64,000 bases of DNA from contig NZ_JADKSJ010000002.1 in the NCBI RefSeq assembly GCF_015351235.1, positions 620,001 through 684,000 on the forward strand. Reading direction: 5' to 3'. Numbering within the stretch: position 1 is the stretch's first letter; each line of letters starts with the position of its first letter. The translations under genes were made by a program, and so were the position numbers. Shown piece by piece: positions 14,615-63,867 of the stretch. Origin of the DNA: Plantibacter sp. VKM Ac-2880 (GTDB taxonomy: Bacteria; Actinomycetota; Actinomycetes; Actinomycetales; Microbacteriaceae). The notes under the pieces were generated by a model. It made no database searches. It had not been told where the DNA came from and worked only from the letters and a program-made list of their open reading frames with translations.

Positions 14615-14856
14615 GGCTCAACGATACCGGGCGCCACCGACCGCGGCTGGCGGGGGTGCAGGTATCTGAGCCGACGGGCGCTCGCTGAGCCGCCCACCGG
14701 TCACTGACCCGCCCACCGGTCACTGAGCTTGCGAAGTGCCGAGCTCACGCCCTCGAGACACCACGCCGCCCTTCGACAAGCTCAGGGACCCGAGTTGGTG
14801 TTCAGCCAGGGACCGGAGGTCCCGTCGACAAGCTCGGGGCGCGGCGGGCTGCGCGA
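14615..14856. repeat. Intergenic region with copies of the CTTCGACAAGCTCAGGGACC repeat
   Basis: Between tmk and holB. One good copy at 14768-14790, a degenerate copy at 14808-14840, and a cluster CACCGGTCACTGA repeated at about 14694-14722 that is a relic of the inverted half. No gene. These form hairpins that could attenuate read-through into holB. Confidence 0.7.
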
Positions 14857-37141: not shown

Positions 37142-37162
37142 GGCGGCTCGGGGCGTACACCG

Positions 37163-37185
37163 CCCTTCGACAAGCTCAGGGACCG
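37163..37185. repeat. Copy of palindromic intergenic repeat
   Basis: CCCTTCGACAAGCTCAGGGACC-type copy 21 bp after the metallophosphatase stop. Internal partial dyad CCCT...AGGG lets it fold, so it could serve as terminator. Confidence 0.7.
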
Positions 37186-47075: not shown

Positions 47076-47090
47076 TCAGACGACCGTCCG

Positions 47091-47112
47091 GCCCCTGAGC
47101 TTGTCGAAGGGC
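47091..47112. repeat. Intergenic repeat between lysC and asd
   Basis: A copy of the GGCCCCTGAGCTTGTCGAAGGG family, just after the lysC stop. With preceding decayed copies (CCGGTCCCTCAG near 47069) it may form an intra-operon hairpin between lysC and asd. Confidence 0.65.
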
Positions 47113-49969: not shown

Positions 49970-52633
49970 CTACCGCCCTCCGGAGCGCGGCTCGTGCGGC
50001 TGCTCCTCGATGAATGTGGCGCCGAGGAGCTCGCGGACGACGCTCTCGCCGTACCGGTTGTCGCCCGCCGGATGGGATCCCGCCGACGCCGGAGGCGCCT
50101 GACGCATCTTGACGAGCGGCTGCCGGCGCTCCGCCACGGGTGGGGCGGCCGAGGCGGCCGGCGCCGGAGTGGCGGGAGCCGAGGCCGCCGCCGCGGGCGC
50201 CGGGGCGTCGTAGGGGTCGGGGTACGGCGGCTCGTCGTCCGGCGGCGGTGCGTCCGCGTCGGACGGGATCGAGACCACGTCCCAGGTGACGGTCCGCGAG
50301 CCGAGCGCGTCGCCGTTGGCGGGACCTCGGGCGGGCGCCTGCTGGCGCGGCGGTGCGGCCTGCTGGCGCGAGGCGGGCGGGGTGGTCGTCGGCGTGGGAG
50401 CTGCGGAACCGGTGGGCTGGGCGGGCTGCCCTTCGACAAGCTCAGGGACCGGAGATGGGGGCGTCGAGGAGGCAGGCGCCGGAGACGAGGTAGGCCCCTC
50501 GACAGGCGCCGGGACCGGGGATGGTGGCGTCGCGGAGGCGGGCCCACGTGACGAGGTGGGCCCTTCGACAGGCTCAGGGACCGAGGACGGTTGCGGCGCC
50601 GAGGCAGGGACCGGAGACGGCTCAGGGACCGAGGACGGTTGCGACGCCGAGGCAGGGGCCGGGGACGGCTCGGGGTCGTCGGCCGGCGGGGCGACCGTCG
50701 CCCAGGAGGAGGACGAGACCGATGCGCGCTCCTCGACCGGTGCCGCAGGCGACGGAGCAGGAGCCGACGACTCGACGGCGGGCGTTCCCGGGCCGGTGGA
50801 TGCGGGCTCGACCGAGGACGCGGCGTCCGCTCCTCCGGCAGGCGCGACCGTCGGCCACGAGGGACGCGACCCTGCCGAGGCGGAGCCGGCTGACGACGCC
50901 GGAGCGGAAGGCGCCGGGACGTTCTGCGGCAGGCTCGGCGTCGACCAGGCGGACGGCTCCGAGGAGGCGGGGCCTGACGCCGGCGCAGCGGCGCGGACCG
51001 CCGGCGGCTCCTCGGCCCCCGCGACCTTGGCGAGGTACTTGACCCGCACGCCGAGGACGTCGAGCACCGCGGTGCGCAGGACCTCGGCCACCCCGGTGCC
51101 CGGGGCGTGGCGGGCCTTGAAATCGTTGAGGTCGCTGTTGTTCGCGAACAGGAGGGTGAGGACCTCGTCGTCGGAGTAGCCACCGACCTGGGCGTTGACG
51201 ACGATCATCCACGCCTTGCGGTCGGCCTTCTCGACGCGGGCGACGATCTCCGGCCAGGCGTCGCGGACGAGCTGCAAGGTGACCGGGCCGACGCGGGGCG
51301 CAGCCGGGGCCGGGGCCGGAGCCGGAGGGGCGACCGGCTCGGGGACCGGAGACGACGCGGAAGCCGGGGCCGGCGTGGAAGACGGCCCCGAGGCCGGGAC
51401 GGCGGCGACCGAGGCGGACGCCGGAACCGACGCCGACGGCGCCACAGCTGCTGGGTCGGCGGCGACGCCGTCGACACCGATACGGCGCTCGAGGCGCTCG
51501 ACCCGGACGAGCGCGCCACGGGCGGAGTCGTCGGCCGCGGGGACGAGGATGCGGGCCATCATGAGTTCGAGGTGGAGCCGCGGCGAGGTCGCGCCCGTCA
51601 TCTGGGTGAGCGCCTCGTTGACGACGTCCGCCGTGCGGGACAGCTCGGCGATGCCGAACGCCCGTGCCTGGCCGAGCATCTTGTCGAGTTCGTCCTGGGG
51701 CAGACCGCGCAGCACGGCGGCCGCGTTCTCGCCGGTGGCGGCGACGACGATGAGGTCGCGGAGCCGTTCGAGCAGGTCGTCGACGAAGCGGCGTGGGTCC
51801 TGACCCGTCTGGATAACGCGGTCGACCGTGCTGAACGCGGCTCCGGAATCACGCGCGGCGAGGGCGTCGACGACCTCGTCGAGCAGCGCGGTGTGCGTGT
51901 AGCCGAGCAGCGCGACCGCGCGTTCGTAGTCGACCGAGTCGCCCTCCGAGCCGGCCATCAGCTGGTCGAGCAGCGACAGGGTGTCGCGGGCCGAACCGCC
52001 ACCGGCACGGACCACGAGCGGCAGGACGCCCGGCTCGACGCCGACGTGCTCGCTGTCGCAGAGCTGCTGCACGTAGTCGAGCATCTGGGCCGGCGGGATG
52101 AGCCGGAACGGGTAGTGGTGGGTGCGCGAACGGATGGTGCCGATCACCTTGTCGGGCTCGGTCGTCGCGAAGATGAACTTCACGTGCTCCGGCGGCTCCT
52201 CGACGATCTTCAGCAGCGCGTTGAAGCCCTGCGGAGTGACCATGTGCGCCTCGTCGAGGATGAAGATCTTGTAGCGGTCGCGGGCCGGCGCGAAGATGGC
52301 GCGCTCGCGGAGGTCGCGGGCGTCATCGACACCGTTGTGGCTGGCGGCGTCGATCTCGACGACGTCGAGCGACCCCGAGCCGTCGCGCGAGAGGTCGACG
52401 CAGCTCGCGCAGACGCCGCAGGGGGTGTCGGTCGGGCCCTCGGCGCAGTTGAGGCAGCGCGCCAGGATCCGGGCCGAGGTCGTCTTGCCACAGCCTCGCG
52501 GACCGCTGAACAGATAGGCGTGATTGACCCGGTTGGTGCGCAGGGCCGTCATGAGGGGATCGGTGACCTGCGCCTGACCGATCATCTCGGCGAACGTCTC
52601 GGGCCGATACCGGCGATACAGAGCAGTGACCAC
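49970..52633 (-). CDS. dnaX: DNA polymerase III subunits gamma/tau
   Basis: An 887-residue clamp-loader ATPase. Walker A GPRGCGKTTS near residue 45, zinc Cys cluster (CLNC...CGVCASC), Walker B FILDEAHM, SRC-like RSRTHHYPF. Domain III to about residue 400, a tau-type C-terminal domain (VTLQLVRDAWPEIVARVEKA region), then about 300 residues rich in Pro, Ala and Ser, then a conserved tail (GESVVRELLGATFIEE). The linker contains in-frame 66-bp and 48-bp tandem repeats derived from an intergenic repeat. GTG at 52633 is the probable start (VVTALYRRYRPETF). No 4.5S RNA gene fits in the 71 bp upstream. Confidence 0.97.
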   Translation of the reverse strand: MVTALYRRYRPETFAEMIGQAQVTDPLMTALRTNRVNHAYLFSGPRGCGKTTSARILARCLNCAEGPTDTPCGVCASCVDLSRDGSGSLDVVEIDAASHNGVDDARDLRERAIFAPARDRYKIFILDEAHMVTPQGFNALLKIVEEPPEHVKFIFATTEPDKVIGTIRSRTHHYPFRLIPPAQMLDYVQQLCDSEHVGVEPGVLPLVVRAGGGSARDTLSLLDQLMAGSEGDSVDYERAVALLGYTHTALLDEVVDALAARDSGAAFSTVDRVIQTGQDPRRFVDDLLERLRDLIVVAATGENAAAVLRGLPQDELDKMLGQARAFGIAELSRTADVVNEALTQMTGATSPRLHLELMMARILVPAADDSARGALVRVERLERRIGVDGVAADPAAVAPSASVPASASVAAVPASGPSSTPAPASASSPVPEPVAPPAPAPAPAAPRVGPVTLQLVRDAWPEIVARVEKADRKAWMIVVNAQVGGYSDDEVLTLLFANNSDLNDFKARHAPGTGVAEVLRTAVLDVLGVRVKYLAKVAGAEEPPAVRAAAPASGPASSEPSAWSTPSLPQNVPAPSAPASSAGSASAGSRPSWPTVAPAGGADAASSVEPASTGPGTPAVESSAPAPSPAAPVEERASVSSSSWATVAPPADDPEPSPAPASASQPSSVPEPSPVPASAPQPSSVPEPVEGPTSSRGPASATPPSPVPAPVEGPTSSPAPASSTPPSPVPELVEGQPAQPTGSAAPTPTTTPPASRQQAAPPRQQAPARGPANGDALGSRTVTWDVVSIPSDADAPPPDDEPPYPDPYDAPAPAAAASAPATPAPAASAAPPVAERRQPLVKMRQAPPASAGSHPAGDNRYGESVVRELLGATFIEEQPHEPRSGGR
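50429..50666. repeat. In-frame repeat array inside dnaX linker
   Basis: Three copies of the intergenic repeat (start 50429, 50495, 50561) recur every 66 bp = 22 codons and encode VPELVEG, VPAPVEG and VPEPVEG. They are followed by two 48-bp copies (50571-50618, 50619-50666) that share only the outer part. All periods are multiples of 3, so reading frame is kept. Residues about 655-735 of DnaX. Confidence 0.85.
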
Positions 52634-55983: not shown

Positions 55984-56028
55984 GGGTGTTTCCTTTCACT
56001 GCGTTGGGAGGAGGAGTGGTGCTGGTGG

Positions 56029-56175
56029 CCCTTCGACAAGCTCAGGGACCGGGGGAAAGCGGTTGTGGGACGGGGCCCTTCGACAAGCTCAGGGACCGGG
56101 GAGGGAGCTCAGGGACCGGGAGGGAGTTCAGGGACCGGGGAGGGAGTTCAGGGACCGGGGAGGGAGTTCAGGGAG
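56029..56175. repeat. Two intergenic repeats plus 20-bp tandem decay products
   Basis: Full copies of CCCTTCGACAAGCTCAGGGACC at 56029-56050 and 56076-56098, then four tandem 20-bp units (AGGGAGTTCAGGGACCGGGG) ending at 56177, immediately before the permease stop at 56180. The tandem unit is the outer half of the repeat only. Confidence 0.8.
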
Positions 56176-59250: not shown

Positions 59251-59447
59251 TCCGGTCATTGAGCTGCACCCGTCCGGTCATTGAGCTGCACCCGTCCGGT
59301 CATTGAGCTGCACCCGTCCGGTCATTGAGCTTGTCGAAATGCCCACCTCCGCACTTCGACAGGCTCAGTGACCGGAAACGGGGAGCTCAGTGACCGGAAA
59401 CGGGGAGCTCAGTGACCGGAAACGGGGAGCTCAGTGACCGGCTCATC
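59251..59447. repeat. Symmetrical inverted array: 4 + 4 copies of 22-bp half-repeats
   Basis: Four copies of a 22-bp unit (TCCGGTCATTGAGCTGCACCCG type, starts 59251, 59273, 59295, 59317) face four copies of a 22-bp unit CTCAGTGACCGGAAACGGGGAG (starts 59364, 59386, 59408, 59430). The innermost pair is a full inverted copy of the intergenic repeat. The array can fold into a nested hairpin between lacI and the GH30-like gene, and may end the lacI transcript. Confidence 0.85.
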
Positions 59448-59573: not shown

Positions 59574-62500
59574 ATGACACTGCCGTCACCAGTCCGCCGC
59601 CGAACGATCGGAGCGACCGTCGCCGTCGCCCTCGGCATCGCCGCGATCGCACCAGCACTCGCCACCGTGGAGGCGCCGCCGGCCGCCGCCGCGGAGGGCA
59701 CCGCCCTGACCATCACACCGAACCCCGCCTACCAGAACGAAGCCTTCGAGGGCTGGGGCACGAGCCTGGTCTGGTTCGCCAACGCGACCGGCGACTACCC
59801 GGCCGACGTCCGCCAGGACCTGTTCGACAAGGTGTTCGGCGAGGACGGACTCAACCTCAACATCGCCCGCTACAACATCGGCGGCGGCAACGCCAGCGAC
59901 GTCCCGCCCTACCTCCGCGCCGGCGGCGCCGTCGACGGCTGGTGGAACCCCGAGCTCGGCGCGAGCGACGCCGACGGGCCTATCACCTCCGACTACGCCG
60001 ACCGCGACCGCTACGCCGCGGCCTGGGACGCCGACGACCCGGCCTCCTACGACTTCACGGCCGACGAGACCCAGCGCTGGTGGCTCACGGCCCTCAAGGA
60101 CAAGATCACCAAGTGGGAGGCGTTCAGCAACTCCCCGCCGTACTTCATGACCGAGAGCGGCTACGTCTCCGGCAACGTCAACGCCGCCGACGAGCAGCTG
60201 AAACCCGAGAGCGTCGACGACTTCGTCGCGTACCTCACCACCGTGGTCGACCACCTCGAGGCCGACACCGGCATCGACTTCGACACGATCGACCCGTTCA
60301 ACGAACCGAACACGAACTATTGGGGCACGCAGATCGACGAGGCCACGGGTTGGCCGAAGGGCGGCCGGCAGGAGGGCGCGCACATCGGGCCCGCCATGCA
60401 GGACACCGTGATCAAGGCCCTCGCGGAGCGCCTGGCTGCCGAGGGCACGTCCACGGAGGCGGTCATCGCCGCGATGGACGAGACCAACCCAGGCATCTTC
60501 GCCACGAACTGGAACGGCTGGTCACAGGCCGCCAAGGACCTCGTGACGCAGCTCAACGTCCACAGTTACGGACAGGGCGGCAGCGTCGTCGCACGCGACA
60601 TCGCGAAGACCGCCGGCAAGCCGCTCTGGATGAGCGAGGTCGAAGGCGACTGGGACTCCAGCGGCAAGCACAACCTCACGAACATCGACAACGGCATCGG
60701 CATGGCGACGCACCTCATCGACGACCTCCGGAACCTCGAGCCGACGGCTTGGGTCCTCTGGCAGCCGGTCGAGGACCTCTACAACATGGAGAAGGTCGAG
60801 AAGCTCAACTGGGGCAGCGTCCTCATCGACTTCGACTGCAACGCCGAGGGCGACTCCGAGCGCCGCATCGCCGACGGTGACGCCGACCCGAGCTGCTCCG
60901 TGCAGACGAACGCGAAGTACAACACGCTCCGGAACTTCACCCACTACGTGCAGCCCGGCGACCACCTCATCCCGTCCACCGATGCGGAGACCACCACGGC
61001 CCTGCGCGCCGACGGCACCGGCGTGAACCTCGTCCACGCGAACCCGTCGACCTCGGCTCGGACGATCACCATCGACCTGTCCAAGTTCGCCAGCATCGCA
61101 CCCGGCGCCACCGTCACTCCCGTGGTCACCACCGAGTCCCCCGCGGACGACGTCACCGCGAACGCCCTCGTGCAGGGCGCGGCCGTCGCGATCGACCCCG
61201 TCACCAAGCAGGCGACGTTGACCGTCCCCGCGAAGTCGGTCACCACCTTCCTCGTCGACGGCGCCACCGGTGTCGCTGCGGACGCCGCACCGTTCCAGGA
61301 CGGACACGGCTACCAGCTCGTCGGGAAGCAGAGCGCGAAGGCGTTCACCGCGTCCAACTCCACGGGTACGGTCCCGGCCGGCACGATCGCGCCTCGCGCG
61401 TCCGACGCCGCCACCGGCGCCGCCCAGGTCTGGACCGCCGAACTCCTGTCCGGCGGGGGCACCAGCACCGCCCGGTACGCGATGCGCAGCGGTTCGGGCG
61501 CGCTCCTCGCCGCGAGCTCGGCCGGGACGTCCCTGGCGACCGCGACCCGGGAACAGGCCGCGACCGACCCGTCCCTGCAGTGGATCCCCACGACGACGAA
61601 CGGCGCCGAGTGGAGCCTCGTGAACGCGGGCACCAGTCAGGCACTCGAGGTCGGCGGACAGTCGACCACGACGGGCGCTGCCGTCGGTGTCTACCAGTCG
61701 AACAACGGCGCGAACCAGACCTGGGCCTTCGTCGACATCGCGCTCACCGGCGTCCAGCCGGTCGTGGCGCAGACCATCGCCGGTGTGCCTGCCGCGCTGC
61801 CGAACACCGTCGTCCCGCTCTACGGCACCGTGCAGGGCTCGCCCGTCCCGGTCACCTGGGACACCTCGGCCGTGGATTGGAACACCCCCGGCACGATCGT
61901 CGTGACCGGGTCCGGCACTGACGGGTGGGGAACGGCCTTCACCGCGCAGGCGACCGTCGACATCGGCGGGTTCACCACCACGGAGCCCGTCTCGCTGACC
62001 GTCGCGGCCGGCACGCCGGCGAGCGCCGTGATCGACGCCGTCCCGGCCACCGTCCCCGCGCAGATCGGGGCGAGCGTCAACCGCTTCGACGCCGCGGTGA
62101 CGTGGGTTGTCGACGCGTTGACCGACGAGGACTTCGCCGAACCCGGCGTGGTCCGGGTGACGGGCACCGCGGTCTCCAACGACCCGGCGGCCGCACCGAT
62201 CGACGCCCTCCTGTCGGTCATCGTGACGGCTCCCGGCGAGCGCAACATCGCTCCCGACCCGACGACCGTCGCGAGTGCGACGTCGATGGAGTCGGGCTAC
62301 CCGGCGAGCAACACGAAGAACGGCGTACGCACCGACAAGGGGTGGTCGAACTGGCGGTCGTCGGACAAGCCGGCGGGCGACACCCTCAGCTATGAGCTGG
62401 GTTCCGCGCAGACGGTCGAGCACGTGACCTTCTACGCCTACAAGGACGGTGGGACGAACAGCTGGCCGAGTGCGCTGACGGTGCAGTACCGCGACGCCGA

Positions 62501-63476
62501 CGGGACATGGATCGATGCGCCGGGCGGAGCGGTCACCGTGCCGGTTCCTGCCGGCGGGACGGCACCGGTCGTCGACGTCGACCTCGGCGGCGTGTCGACC
62601 TCGGCCGTGCGCGTCGTCATGACGGCGTACCCGAACACGCACCTCGTCGTCTCGGAGGTGGAGATCTACGCGCTCGCGCCGTCGGTCGCCACCGAAGCCG
62701 GCCTCGCGGCCCTGCGGGTGAACGGCACACCGGTCGAGGGCTTCGACGCAAGCGTGCTCGAGTACGAGGTGCCGCTGGCCGGCTCCGCGGATCCCGTGAT
62801 CGACGCGATCCCGGCCGACCGCGACGCGACGGTCACGATCGAACCGCTCGCCGCTGCTCCGGCTGCGGCGGCCCGTGCTGCGGCTGACGCGAGCGACGGT
62901 GTCGTCATCACGGTGACGGCGGCCGACGGCGCGACCACGCAGACGACGACGATCACCTTCGCCAGGACGGCGGTCGCGACCGCGACGTTGGCGAGCGTGG
63001 CGCGCGAAGGGGTCGCGACGACCGCGGCGGTCGTCCTCGACCCGGAGGACGCCACCGTGGTCTACGCGTGGCTGCTCGACGGCGAGGTGCTGGACGGGGC
63101 CGACACGGCGACGTTCACCCCGCCCGTCGGCAGCGCCGGTGCCGCGCTCTCAGTGCGGGTGACGGTCTCGGCCGACGGCTTCGCACCCGTCGAGACGACG
63201 TCCGCACCGGCGACCGTCCTGGCCGCCGTGGTGGACCCGGGAACCGATCCCGGCACCGACCCGGGGACGAACCCCGGGACCGGGCCCGGCACGGGTTCCG
63301 GCGGCACGGTCGGGAGCGGTGACGGCACGAGCTCGCCCTCGGGTGGTTCGGCCGCGGGCGCCGACTCGCTGTCCCGCACGGGCGTCGACGTGTCGACCGT
63401 CGGGCTCGTCGCGCTGCTCCTCGGCCTCGTCGGCTTCGGCTCCGTGCTCGTCGCGCGACGCCGACGCTCGGCCTAG
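59574..63476 (+). CDS. Wall-anchored multidomain GH30-like glycanase (probable endo-beta-1,6-galactanase)
   Basis: A 1300-residue secreted enzyme. Signal peptide to about residue 40. Catalytic barrel about 45-500: EGWGTSLVWFANATGDYP, acid/base Glu in DPFNEPNTNYWG and nucleophile Glu in WMSEVEGDWD, matching GH30 galactanase-type members. Then a ricin-like lectin region (about 555-725: FQDGHGYQLVGKQS ... QALEVGGQS ... NQTWAF), two Ig-like domains (about 730-890), an F5/8C-type carbohydrate-binding domain (about 895-1040), a cadherin-like beta domain (about 1045-1130), a Pro/Gly/Thr linker, and LSRTG, hydrophobic helix, RRRRSA sorting end. Acts on plant arabinogalactan-type chains (inference), feeding the ABC/GH35 genes. 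Confidence 0.9.
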   Translation: MTLPSPVRRRTIGATVAVALGIAAIAPALATVEAPPAAAAEGTALTITPNPAYQNEAFEGWGTSLVWFANATGDYPADVRQDLFDKVFGEDGLNLNIARYNIGGGNASDVPPYLRAGGAVDGWWNPELGASDADGPITSDYADRDRYAAAWDADDPASYDFTADETQRWWLTALKDKITKWEAFSNSPPYFMTESGYVSGNVNAADEQLKPESVDDFVAYLTTVVDHLEADTGIDFDTIDPFNEPNTNYWGTQIDEATGWPKGGRQEGAHIGPAMQDTVIKALAERLAAEGTSTEAVIAAMDETNPGIFATNWNGWSQAAKDLVTQLNVHSYGQGGSVVARDIAKTAGKPLWMSEVEGDWDSSGKHNLTNIDNGIGMATHLIDDLRNLEPTAWVLWQPVEDLYNMEKVEKLNWGSVLIDFDCNAEGDSERRIADGDADPSCSVQTNAKYNTLRNFTHYVQPGDHLIPSTDAETTTALRADGTGVNLVHANPSTSARTITIDLSKFASIAPGATVTPVVTTESPADDVTANALVQGAAVAIDPVTKQATLTVPAKSVTTFLVDGATGVAADAAPFQDGHGYQLVGKQSAKAFTASNSTGTVPAGTIAPRASDAATGAAQVWTAELLSGGGTSTARYAMRSGSGALLAASSAGTSLATATREQAATDPSLQWIPTTTNGAEWSLVNAGTSQALEVGGQSTTTGAAVGVYQSNNGANQTWAFVDIALTGVQPVVAQTIAGVPAALPNTVVPLYGTVQGSPVPVTWDTSAVDWNTPGTIVVTGSGTDGWGTAFTAQATVDIGGFTTTEPVSLTVAAGTPASAVIDAVPATVPAQIGASVNRFDAAVTWVVDALTDEDFAEPGVVRVTGTAVSNDPAAAPIDALLSVIVTAPGERNIAPDPTTVASATSMESGYPASNTKNGVRTDKGWSNWRSSDKPAGDTLSYELGSAQTVEHVTFYAYKDGGTNSWPSALTVQYRDADGTWIDAPGGAVTVPVPAGGTAPVVDVDLGGVSTSAVRVVMTAYPNTHLVVSEVEIYALAPSVATEAGLAALRVNGTPVEGFDASVLEYEVPLAGSADPVIDAIPADRDATVTIEPLAAAPAAAARAAADASDGVVITVTAADGATTQTTTITFARTAVATATLASVAREGVATTAAVVLDPEDATVVYAWLLDGEVLDGADTATFTPPVGSAGAALSVRVTVSADGFAPVETTSAPATVLAAVVDPGTDPGTDPGTNPGTGPGTGSGGTVGSGDGTSSPSGGSAAGADSLSRTGVDVSTVGLVALLLGLVGFGSVLVARRRRSA

Positions 63477-63479
63477 CCG

Positions 63480-63867
63480 ACCGCACCTCGACAGGCTCGG
63501 TGACCGGACCCCCTCTGGTCCCTGAGCCTGTCGAAGGGATGCAAACGACAGAACCCGCACTTCGACAAGCTCAGTGACCAGAACGGCTCCCGCGGAGAAC
63601 CCCGGTCCCTGAGCCTGTCGAAGGGCACCCGACCGACACCGCACTTCGACAAGCTCAGCGACCAGAATGATCCCCGCGGAGAACCCCGGTCCCTGAGCCT
63701 GTCGAAGGGCACCCGACCGACACCGCACTTCGACAAGCTCAGTGGCCAGAATGATCCCCGCGGAGAACCCCGGTCCCTGAGCCTGTCGAGGGGCACCCGA
63801 CGAACACCGCACTTCGACAGGCTCAGTGACCGGACCCTCCGGCCCCTGAGCCTGTCGAAGGGCAGCA
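63480..63867. repeat. Dense array of intergenic repeats with three 84-bp tandem units
   Basis: Unit GCACTTCGACAAGCTCAGTG... is repeated at 63557-63640, 63641-63724 and 63725-63808, each holding one forward and one inverted copy of the repeat, with further single copies at 63483-63540 and 63809-63862. No gene; ORFs here are repeat translations. Confidence 0.88.

Follow-up and report, generated by a model that had tools for sequence, protein, structure and literature searches.

We found that a 23-bp palindromic repeat, which fills intergenic regions in a 64-kb stretch of the genome of Plantibacter sp. VKM Ac-2880 (hereafter "the window"; G000:C2:620001-684000, where G000 is the source genome and G and L numbers are our handles for genomes and loci), also lies inside dnaX, the gene for DNA polymerase III gamma/tau. 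The repeat in dnaX is the same as the intergenic one, is read in frame, is present throughout the genus, and varies in unit number between species. We consider it likely that a GGTC-headed repetitive extragenic palindrome (REP) of the Microbacteriaceae entered the linker of DnaX in an ancestor of Plantibacter and then multiplied there in tandem.

The repeat array in dnaX

Scoring all 23 positions of the element, with the outer pairs left free and at least 20 of 23 matches required, we counted 20 full copies in the window, 3 of them in dnaX and 17 intergenic according to codon-score gene calls. This bears out the original prediction, made from the letters of the window, that an element filling its intergenic regions recurs within dnaX. 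A 22-mer pattern with up to 3 mismatches gave 18 matches in the window, where the mean of 100 shuffles was 0. The features of the window are as follows:

49970..52633, minus strand: dnaX (DNA polymerase III gamma/tau), 887 amino acids, with domains DNA_pol3_delta2, DNA_pol3_gamma3 and DNAX_ATPase_lid
50428..50450, plus strand: perfect element (23/23), read by dnaX on the minus strand as VPELVEG
50494..50516, plus strand: degenerate element (20/23), read by dnaX as VPAPVEG
50560..50582, plus strand: perfect element (23/23), read by dnaX as VPEPVEG
50428..50619, minus strand: 66-bp (22-codon) tandem array, 2.9 copies (Tandem Repeats Finder)
50571..50675, minus strand: 48-bp (16-codon) tandem array, 2.2 copies, containing part of the element and overlapping the 66-bp array (Tandem Repeats Finder)
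14768..14790, plus strand: intergenic element copy
37162..37184, plus strand: intergenic element copy
47090..47112, minus strand: intergenic element copy
56028..56097, plus strand: two intergenic element copies, 47 bp apart
59320..59373, both strands: intergenic inverted element pair (minus then plus, GGTC heads outward)
63483..63863, both strands: 10 element copies whose orientation alternates (5 plus, 5 minus) and whose period is mostly 84 bp, just after the gene at 59574-63476

The dnaX copies are 66 bp apart, as had been predicted, with the nuance that two are perfect and one carries three changes (the 22-mer matches start at 50429, at 50495 with 3 mismatches, and at 50561). They lie in the Pro/Ser/Ala-rich linker of DnaX, ahead of the conserved tail NRYGESVVRELLGATFIEE, and the V-P-E-P-V-E-G coding that had been noted for this proline-rich region is found there in the three readings listed above. 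The expected 48-bp derivative is likewise present, as an array that overlaps the 66-bp one, and the five repeat periods within dnaX (66, 48, 24, 21 and 12) are indeed all multiples of three.

Sequence and spread of the element

Alignment of 129 copies revealed an element of 23 bp with sharp borders, which in one direction reads GC-M-CTTCGACARGCTCAG-K-GACC. Read in the other direction it is GGTC-N-CTGAGCYTGTCGAAG-N'-GC, i.e., a GGTC head and a GC tail enclosing a palindrome in which N pairs with N'. This outer pair was Watson-Crick in 298 of the 312 copies with an exact core (220 C-G, 49 A-T and 29 G-C), compared to a maximum of 196 in 1000 shuffles, while the two inner stem pairs were fixed by the search core and are thus uninformative on compensatory change. 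Because the outer pair co-varies in this manner, the element is a genuine short stem with a conserved interior, despite showing no excess stability in energy models.

The core occurred 371 times in G000, where a reversed-pattern control gave 0, and it was present in all seven Plantibacter genomes at 168-590 copies per genome. Among 299 sampled genomes of the Microbacteriaceae its spread was patchy, with at least one core copy in 101 of them, and a phylum-wide sample had the core in 41 of 396 genomes. Other repeat-rich genomes include G144 and G190, with 400 and 362 copies, respectively. In G584, which belongs to another family of the same class, we observed 28 core copies, and none in G594, its sole sampled genus mate; perhaps the element arrived there horizontally.

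Neighboring copies in Plantibacter that are at most 60 bp apart were arranged as minus-plus (45), plus-minus (39), plus-plus (50) or minus-minus (19). The minus-plus pairs point their GGTC heads outward across gaps of mostly 8-21 bp, and direct arrays of the element display many different periods. Being short (23 bp, vs. the 20-40 bp of REPs), high in copy number, mainly intergenic, and an imperfect palindrome with a compensatory outer pair, the element is a REP in the broad sense. A site resembling the FtsK-orienting polar sequences (KOPS) or Chi was considered and dropped, as no strong strand bias was found: Whole-genome counts gave 222:149 in G000 and an almost even split in six relatives, and direct scans agree with them.

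dnaX across species

We surveyed dnaX in 30 genomes with at least 5 core copies and at 80 loci taken from named records. The element lies in an open dnaX frame in six of the seven Plantibacter genomes; the seventh, G004, has two exact copies in dnaX, but its frame is broken. In this single-contig genome, the linker frame (L133) is interrupted twice, through either sequencing error or real change. The best dnaX matches among the named records, the Plantibacter loci L031 and L032, carry the array, as does L036 (P. flavus, 96% in the best segment). From 2 to 6 units were found among Plantibacter species, and the last unit occupies the same place in all six open-frame genes, for which reason the capture in dnaX probably predates the genus.

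Further copies were found in the dnaX genes of other genera. At the Planctomonas locus L077 they sit elsewhere in the linker with a 141-bp spacing, and G076 has two copies at the same positions as L077. The dnaX gene of G172 holds a copy in the opposite orientation, which reads PSTSSA, and that of G043 contains degenerate matches only. The element was thus captured separately in the dnaX genes of other genera, as it was in other genes (see below).

VPEPVEG was present at 4 of the 80 loci, namely L031, L032, L036 and L077, which have 5, 3, 9 and 21 element copies in their flanks. The remaining 76 loci, 8 of which are cut by contig ends, had no VPEPVEG and 0 or 1 flanking copy, so that linkers of this kind, whose appearance in repeat-free species would have spoken for a coding origin, were seen only alongside the repeat. 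Since VPEPVEG is confined to four dnaX loci with at least three copies nearby, it is well supported that dnaX captured the intergenic repeat and that the repeat was not born there, in agreement with the earlier suggestion that a mobile-type repeat has been built into this gene. One chance-like match with a single mismatch was observed in the first part of dnaX at L057.

The converse idea, that of a linker repeat born within dnaX that came to look like the intergenic one secondarily or by convergence, can draw on the fact that DnaX linkers of this family are of low complexity and vary in length without any repeat. Next to the restriction of VPEPVEG to loci with the repeat nearby, it is opposed by the spelling of the peptide, which uses rare codons that match the element (CCT accounts for 3% of Pro; the probability of the spelling given the peptide is 1e-5), and by the occurrence of the element in unrelated genes in both orientations. 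We regard such an origin as extremely unlikely.

Between two landmarks, the linker measured 358-425 residues in Plantibacter, and the predicted change of linker length accordingly holds within the genus. Because other genera range from 99 to 479 residues (median 253, from 54 rows with both landmarks, in which some species appear twice and a few carry the element), this change is within the normal variation of the family.

The mechanism that we propose is that one REP copy entered the DnaX linker in the Plantibacter ancestor, placed so that it encoded VPEPVEG in its given orientation and frame, and that a 66-bp stretch comprising the element and neighboring linker would then have multiplied in tandem, leading to the 2-6 units of today. 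This growth may have occurred by slippage or unequal recombination. The insertion was presumably tolerated as near-neutral because of the presumed disorder of the linker.

Three results weigh against this account. The predicted folding of the isolated element was no more stable than that of shuffles. The synonymous conservation of the dnaX copies (0 of 100) was unexceptional, as a control over the first 380 codons gave zero in 42 of 373 windows too. And no element with at most 2 mismatches was found in the dnaX of 20 of the 30 repeat-bearing genomes, G144 and G190 included (for two of these 20, the locus ends within the gene). All three also speak against the notion that the dnaX copies are kept for a function in DNA or RNA, and so does the absence of a strong strand bias noted above. 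This function might lie in a DNA site linked to replication, or in a hairpin at which pausing or a frameshift yields a short product like gamma. Such a function would fit the observations that synonymous codons are kept in the last unit of six species and that one of the two shifted frames through the element ends in TGA; on balance, we judge it improbable.

Copies inside genes and their reading frame

We sampled stretches of seven genomes, which contained 400 copies with at least 20 of 23 matches (1 in the control) in DNA that was 85-91% coding (about 89% overall). The stretches of G000 (20) lay mostly around listed copies, those of G001 (40) and G004 (20) were evenly spaced, and for G172, G043, G027 and G144 listed copies guided part of the choice. 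Genes were called with our own codon-score script, without an annotation pipeline. A looser threshold of 18 of 23 matches gave 21 control matches in all and was therefore raised to 20.

Most of the 400 copies were intergenic (343), while 17 lay at gene edges and 40 within called genes. The intragenic share was 8/156 in G000, 7/90 in G001, 0/34 in G004, 0/35 in G027 and 1/15 in G144, and was higher in G172 (18/44) and G043 (6/26), two genomes of one other genus. Genes that contain the element encode a GH3 hydrolase, a DEAH-type helicase, an SNF2 helicase, a beta-galactosidase, a decarboxylase and DnaX. In Plantibacter, the GH3 insert comes after the N-terminal domain, and its length varies among four species (4 of 7 GH3 loci matched the pattern). 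In G172 and G043 (L243, L244, L245, L247 and L252), we observed that intragenic copies often form inverted pairs, such as VPELVEG...STGSAT, in helicases and metabolic enzymes.

Five of the six frames of the element are open and one contains a stop. For the frame test we used the 31 interior copies and left out 9 terminal ones (closer than 60 bp to a gene end). The interior copies yielded 24 gene-frame cases in 18 genes: 12 VPELVEG-like, 8 PSTSSGT-like, 3 PFDKLRD-like, 1 ALRQAQG-like and 0 SLSLSKG-like. Two of the five open frames thus took 20 of the 24 cases (p = 1.7e-5, a value that counts the single dnaX event of G000 and G001 twice and treats pairs within the same gene as independent, which they are not). 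The terminal copies read VPELVEG (3), PSTSSGT (1), ALRQAQG (2), SLSLSKG (1) and PFDKLRD (2), and the 44 interior copies obtained at the looser threshold read VPELVEG (20), PSTSSGT (10), PFDKLRD (8), SLSLSKG (4) and ALRQAQG (2).

The gene caller is an unlikely source of this bias, because a codon-score caller would favor the PFDKLRD and SLSLSKG frames, in which, upon inspection of the sequence, every codon ends in G or C. Spacing between neighbors of the same orientation was a multiple of three in all six intragenic cases, of which dnaX supplied four, and in 21 of 80 intergenic ones. The original prediction had held that selection acts on the frame but not on the content. With 20 of 24 cases in two of five open frames, the content of the encoded peptide is selected as well as the frame. 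The tolerated insertions seem to be small polar, proline- or serine-rich peptides, perhaps for that very character, and the frame bias in this sense indicates which peptide insertions proteins tolerate.

Relation to known palindromic repeats

In-frame palindromes of this kind are known from the Rickettsia palindromic elements (RPEs). As described in the available passages of the RPE literature (PMC3767692, PMC2229807, PMC3733652), these are intergenic palindromes, in general 100-150 bp long, that also occur in frame in conserved protein genes, with RPE-4/6 in the gene of the DNA polymerase III alpha subunit. The same passages describe coding palindromes from Rickettsia, Wolbachia and several other bacteria, and repeat clusters of 43-82 codons within genes of Thauera and R. 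conorii. Judged by these descriptions, our element resembles the RPEs in that the same palindrome is found between genes and in frame within conserved protein genes, replication genes included; it differs in its sequence, in its phylum and in its unit of 23 bp vs. 100-150 bp. As far as these passages go, intragenic multiplication as such is already known and a dnaX array whose unit number varies with species is new. With a unit of 23 bp, the same process now appears in Actinomycetota, in a family of high GC content, where it reached the replication machinery at DnaX more than once.

A second point of comparison is the GTAG- and CGTC-tagged REPs surveyed by Di Nocera in 2013 (PMC3733652, in the passages available), which have intragenic copies in replication and repair genes, and of which the CGTC class lacks a dedicated transposase. 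Our element shares with them the short palindrome with an unpaired 4-base head, the inverted dimers, the mostly intergenic location and the intragenic copies. The CGTC family is defined there by a CGTC (or TGTC/CCTC) head, AT at the first stem positions and a CCA tail, whereas our element has a GGTC head, a GC tail, and a stem that starts N-C-T or C-N-C-T. The GTAG family, which is associated with the REP-associated tyrosine transposase (RAYT), differs in its head as well, and a search for this Y1 transposase (PF01797) gave no hit in the source genome (0/1) or in 30 relatives (0/30; 15 repeat-rich and 15 repeat-free), with 5 of 14 control genomes positive. Since it fails both sequence definitions, we file the element in neither family. 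The same paper mentions untagged REP-like repeats of M. tuberculosis, and its main text contains neither "Actinobacter" nor "Microbacter". Among openly licensed PMC papers, we found none on the repeat sequence or its peptides, none that joins dnaX, linker, repeat and Microbacteriaceae, none with a fitting title for Plantibacter and palindrome, and, in the passages these papers offer, none that ties the protein family DUF222 (see below) to short palindromes.

A candidate mover bracketed by the element

Of 2340 called genes, 24 had an element copy no more than 250 bp away on each side. One family, which combines DUF222 with HNH, accounts for nine of them (82-94% identity), and a tenth belongs to it more distantly. 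REPs flanked both sides of 9 of 9 DUF222-HNH genes in the close clade, compared to 14 of 2074 other genes (genes at stretch ends dropped), which is the telling control, as the DUF222 genes of REP-free genomes lack an adjoining REP trivially. Among seven distant DUF222 genes, one had REPs on both sides, one upstream only and five none, and seven further DUF222 loci (L291-L297) had no REP. A whole-genome search for DUF222 loci in Plantibacter again found REPs on both sides in 9 of 9 (two already in the close-clade nine), and in G190, a member of another genus, REPs flanked both sides of 25 of 30 loci and the downstream side of 30 of 30, in near and far protein clades alike (two further matches came without a locus). 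The bracketed genes are as follows:

L116:5135-6406, L119, L120, L121, L124, L161, L189, L203, L218, L270-L278, L298, L299, L308-L336: REP-bracketed multi-copy DUF222-HNH gene, candidate mover (Plantibacter, most G190 loci, one of G138)

The arrangement of the REPs around these genes is regular. In all nine close-clade genes, 80-82 bp separate the start from the nearest upstream REP, whose GGTC head points outward. Across 14 aligned Plantibacter copies, similarity begins at the upstream REP and extends inward only; the outer flanks are mostly unrelated, apart from two pairs that share a flank and look orthologous. An oppositely oriented REP follows within ~250 bp downstream at 8 of 9 Plantibacter and 29 of 30 G190 loci, many of which have other downstream copies too. 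At one orthologous site, the full DUF222-HNH element is present in G000, G005, G001 and G006, truncated in G003, and visible as a left end in G002 before the contig stops, while G004 (L301, G004:C1:1412542-1413285 and downstream) has a single REP and no gene.

Because REPs bracket a multi-copy DUF222-HNH gene with the nearest upstream head outward, we propose that the gene and its REPs would form an autonomous element, of which single or paired REPs would be non-autonomous ends. It seems to us quite possible, if somewhat short of probable, that this REP system is moved by the DUF222-HNH endonuclease and not by a RAYT, and that its offspring palindromes have repeatedly been built into protein linkers, that of DnaX included, in two frames that give small polar, proline- or serine-rich peptides. 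Likeness to RAYT-REP systems lies in the single REPs, the inverted pairs and the enzyme gene flanked by REPs, and the difference in the flanked gene, which is here DUF222-HNH and not a Y1 transposase. DUF222 and REP counts were correlated across 31 genomes (rank correlation rho 0.81), which is only suggestive, as these genomes were chosen for extreme REP counts and are related species.

Several observations pull in the other direction. Among six other repeat-rich genomes, the best DUF222 match stands without any adjoining REP in five (G195, G144, G043, G172 and G076) and has one downstream only in the sixth, G027. Three distant Plantibacter DUF222 genes have no REP, and in G190, clades of DUF222 with 25-33% and 42-51% identity to the query share one REP. 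The link of DUF222 to the REPs is moreover an association, and movement by the enzyme is a hypothesis drawn from sequence comparison.

The shared REP of the divergent G190 clades and the repeat-rich genomes whose best DUF222 match has no REP are also what could be expected if DUF222-HNH were a mobile gene in its own right, which homes into REPs or beside them, with the REPs spread by another process. Tobes and Pareja reportedly described REPs in 2006 as targets of insertion sequences, which we count in favor of homing too. Homing explains the bracketing as well as movement by the enzyme does. The orientation and fixed spacing favor the enzyme as mover: The upstream REP keeps one orientation and an almost constant distance across the 14 aligned Plantibacter copies, and the oppositely oriented REP downstream provides a symmetry that is not obviously expected from insertion beside existing REPs. 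We therefore hold homing to be quite possible, though somewhat less likely than movement by the enzyme.

As far as the available passages of the literature show, palindromes that code in frame have been described before, replication genes included (RPEs, REPs), and what is new is the association with DUF222-HNH where no RAYT was found. If true, this link would offer a candidate enzyme for transposase-less REPs, a question that the 2013 survey, in its available passages, left open for the CGTC class, and it would provide a function for DUF222, a large family of unknown role. The REP13E12 repeats of mycobacteria, which are listed as a repetitive element with DUF222-HNH (PMC10589994, in the available passages), contain the same protein families; we liken them by description, and those passages draw no tie to short palindromes. 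In the upstream flank of L270, we furthermore observed an array of half-elements (GGTCCCTGAG or GGTCCCTGGG, followed by unrelated bases) with a period of ~22 bp, located beside a full element.

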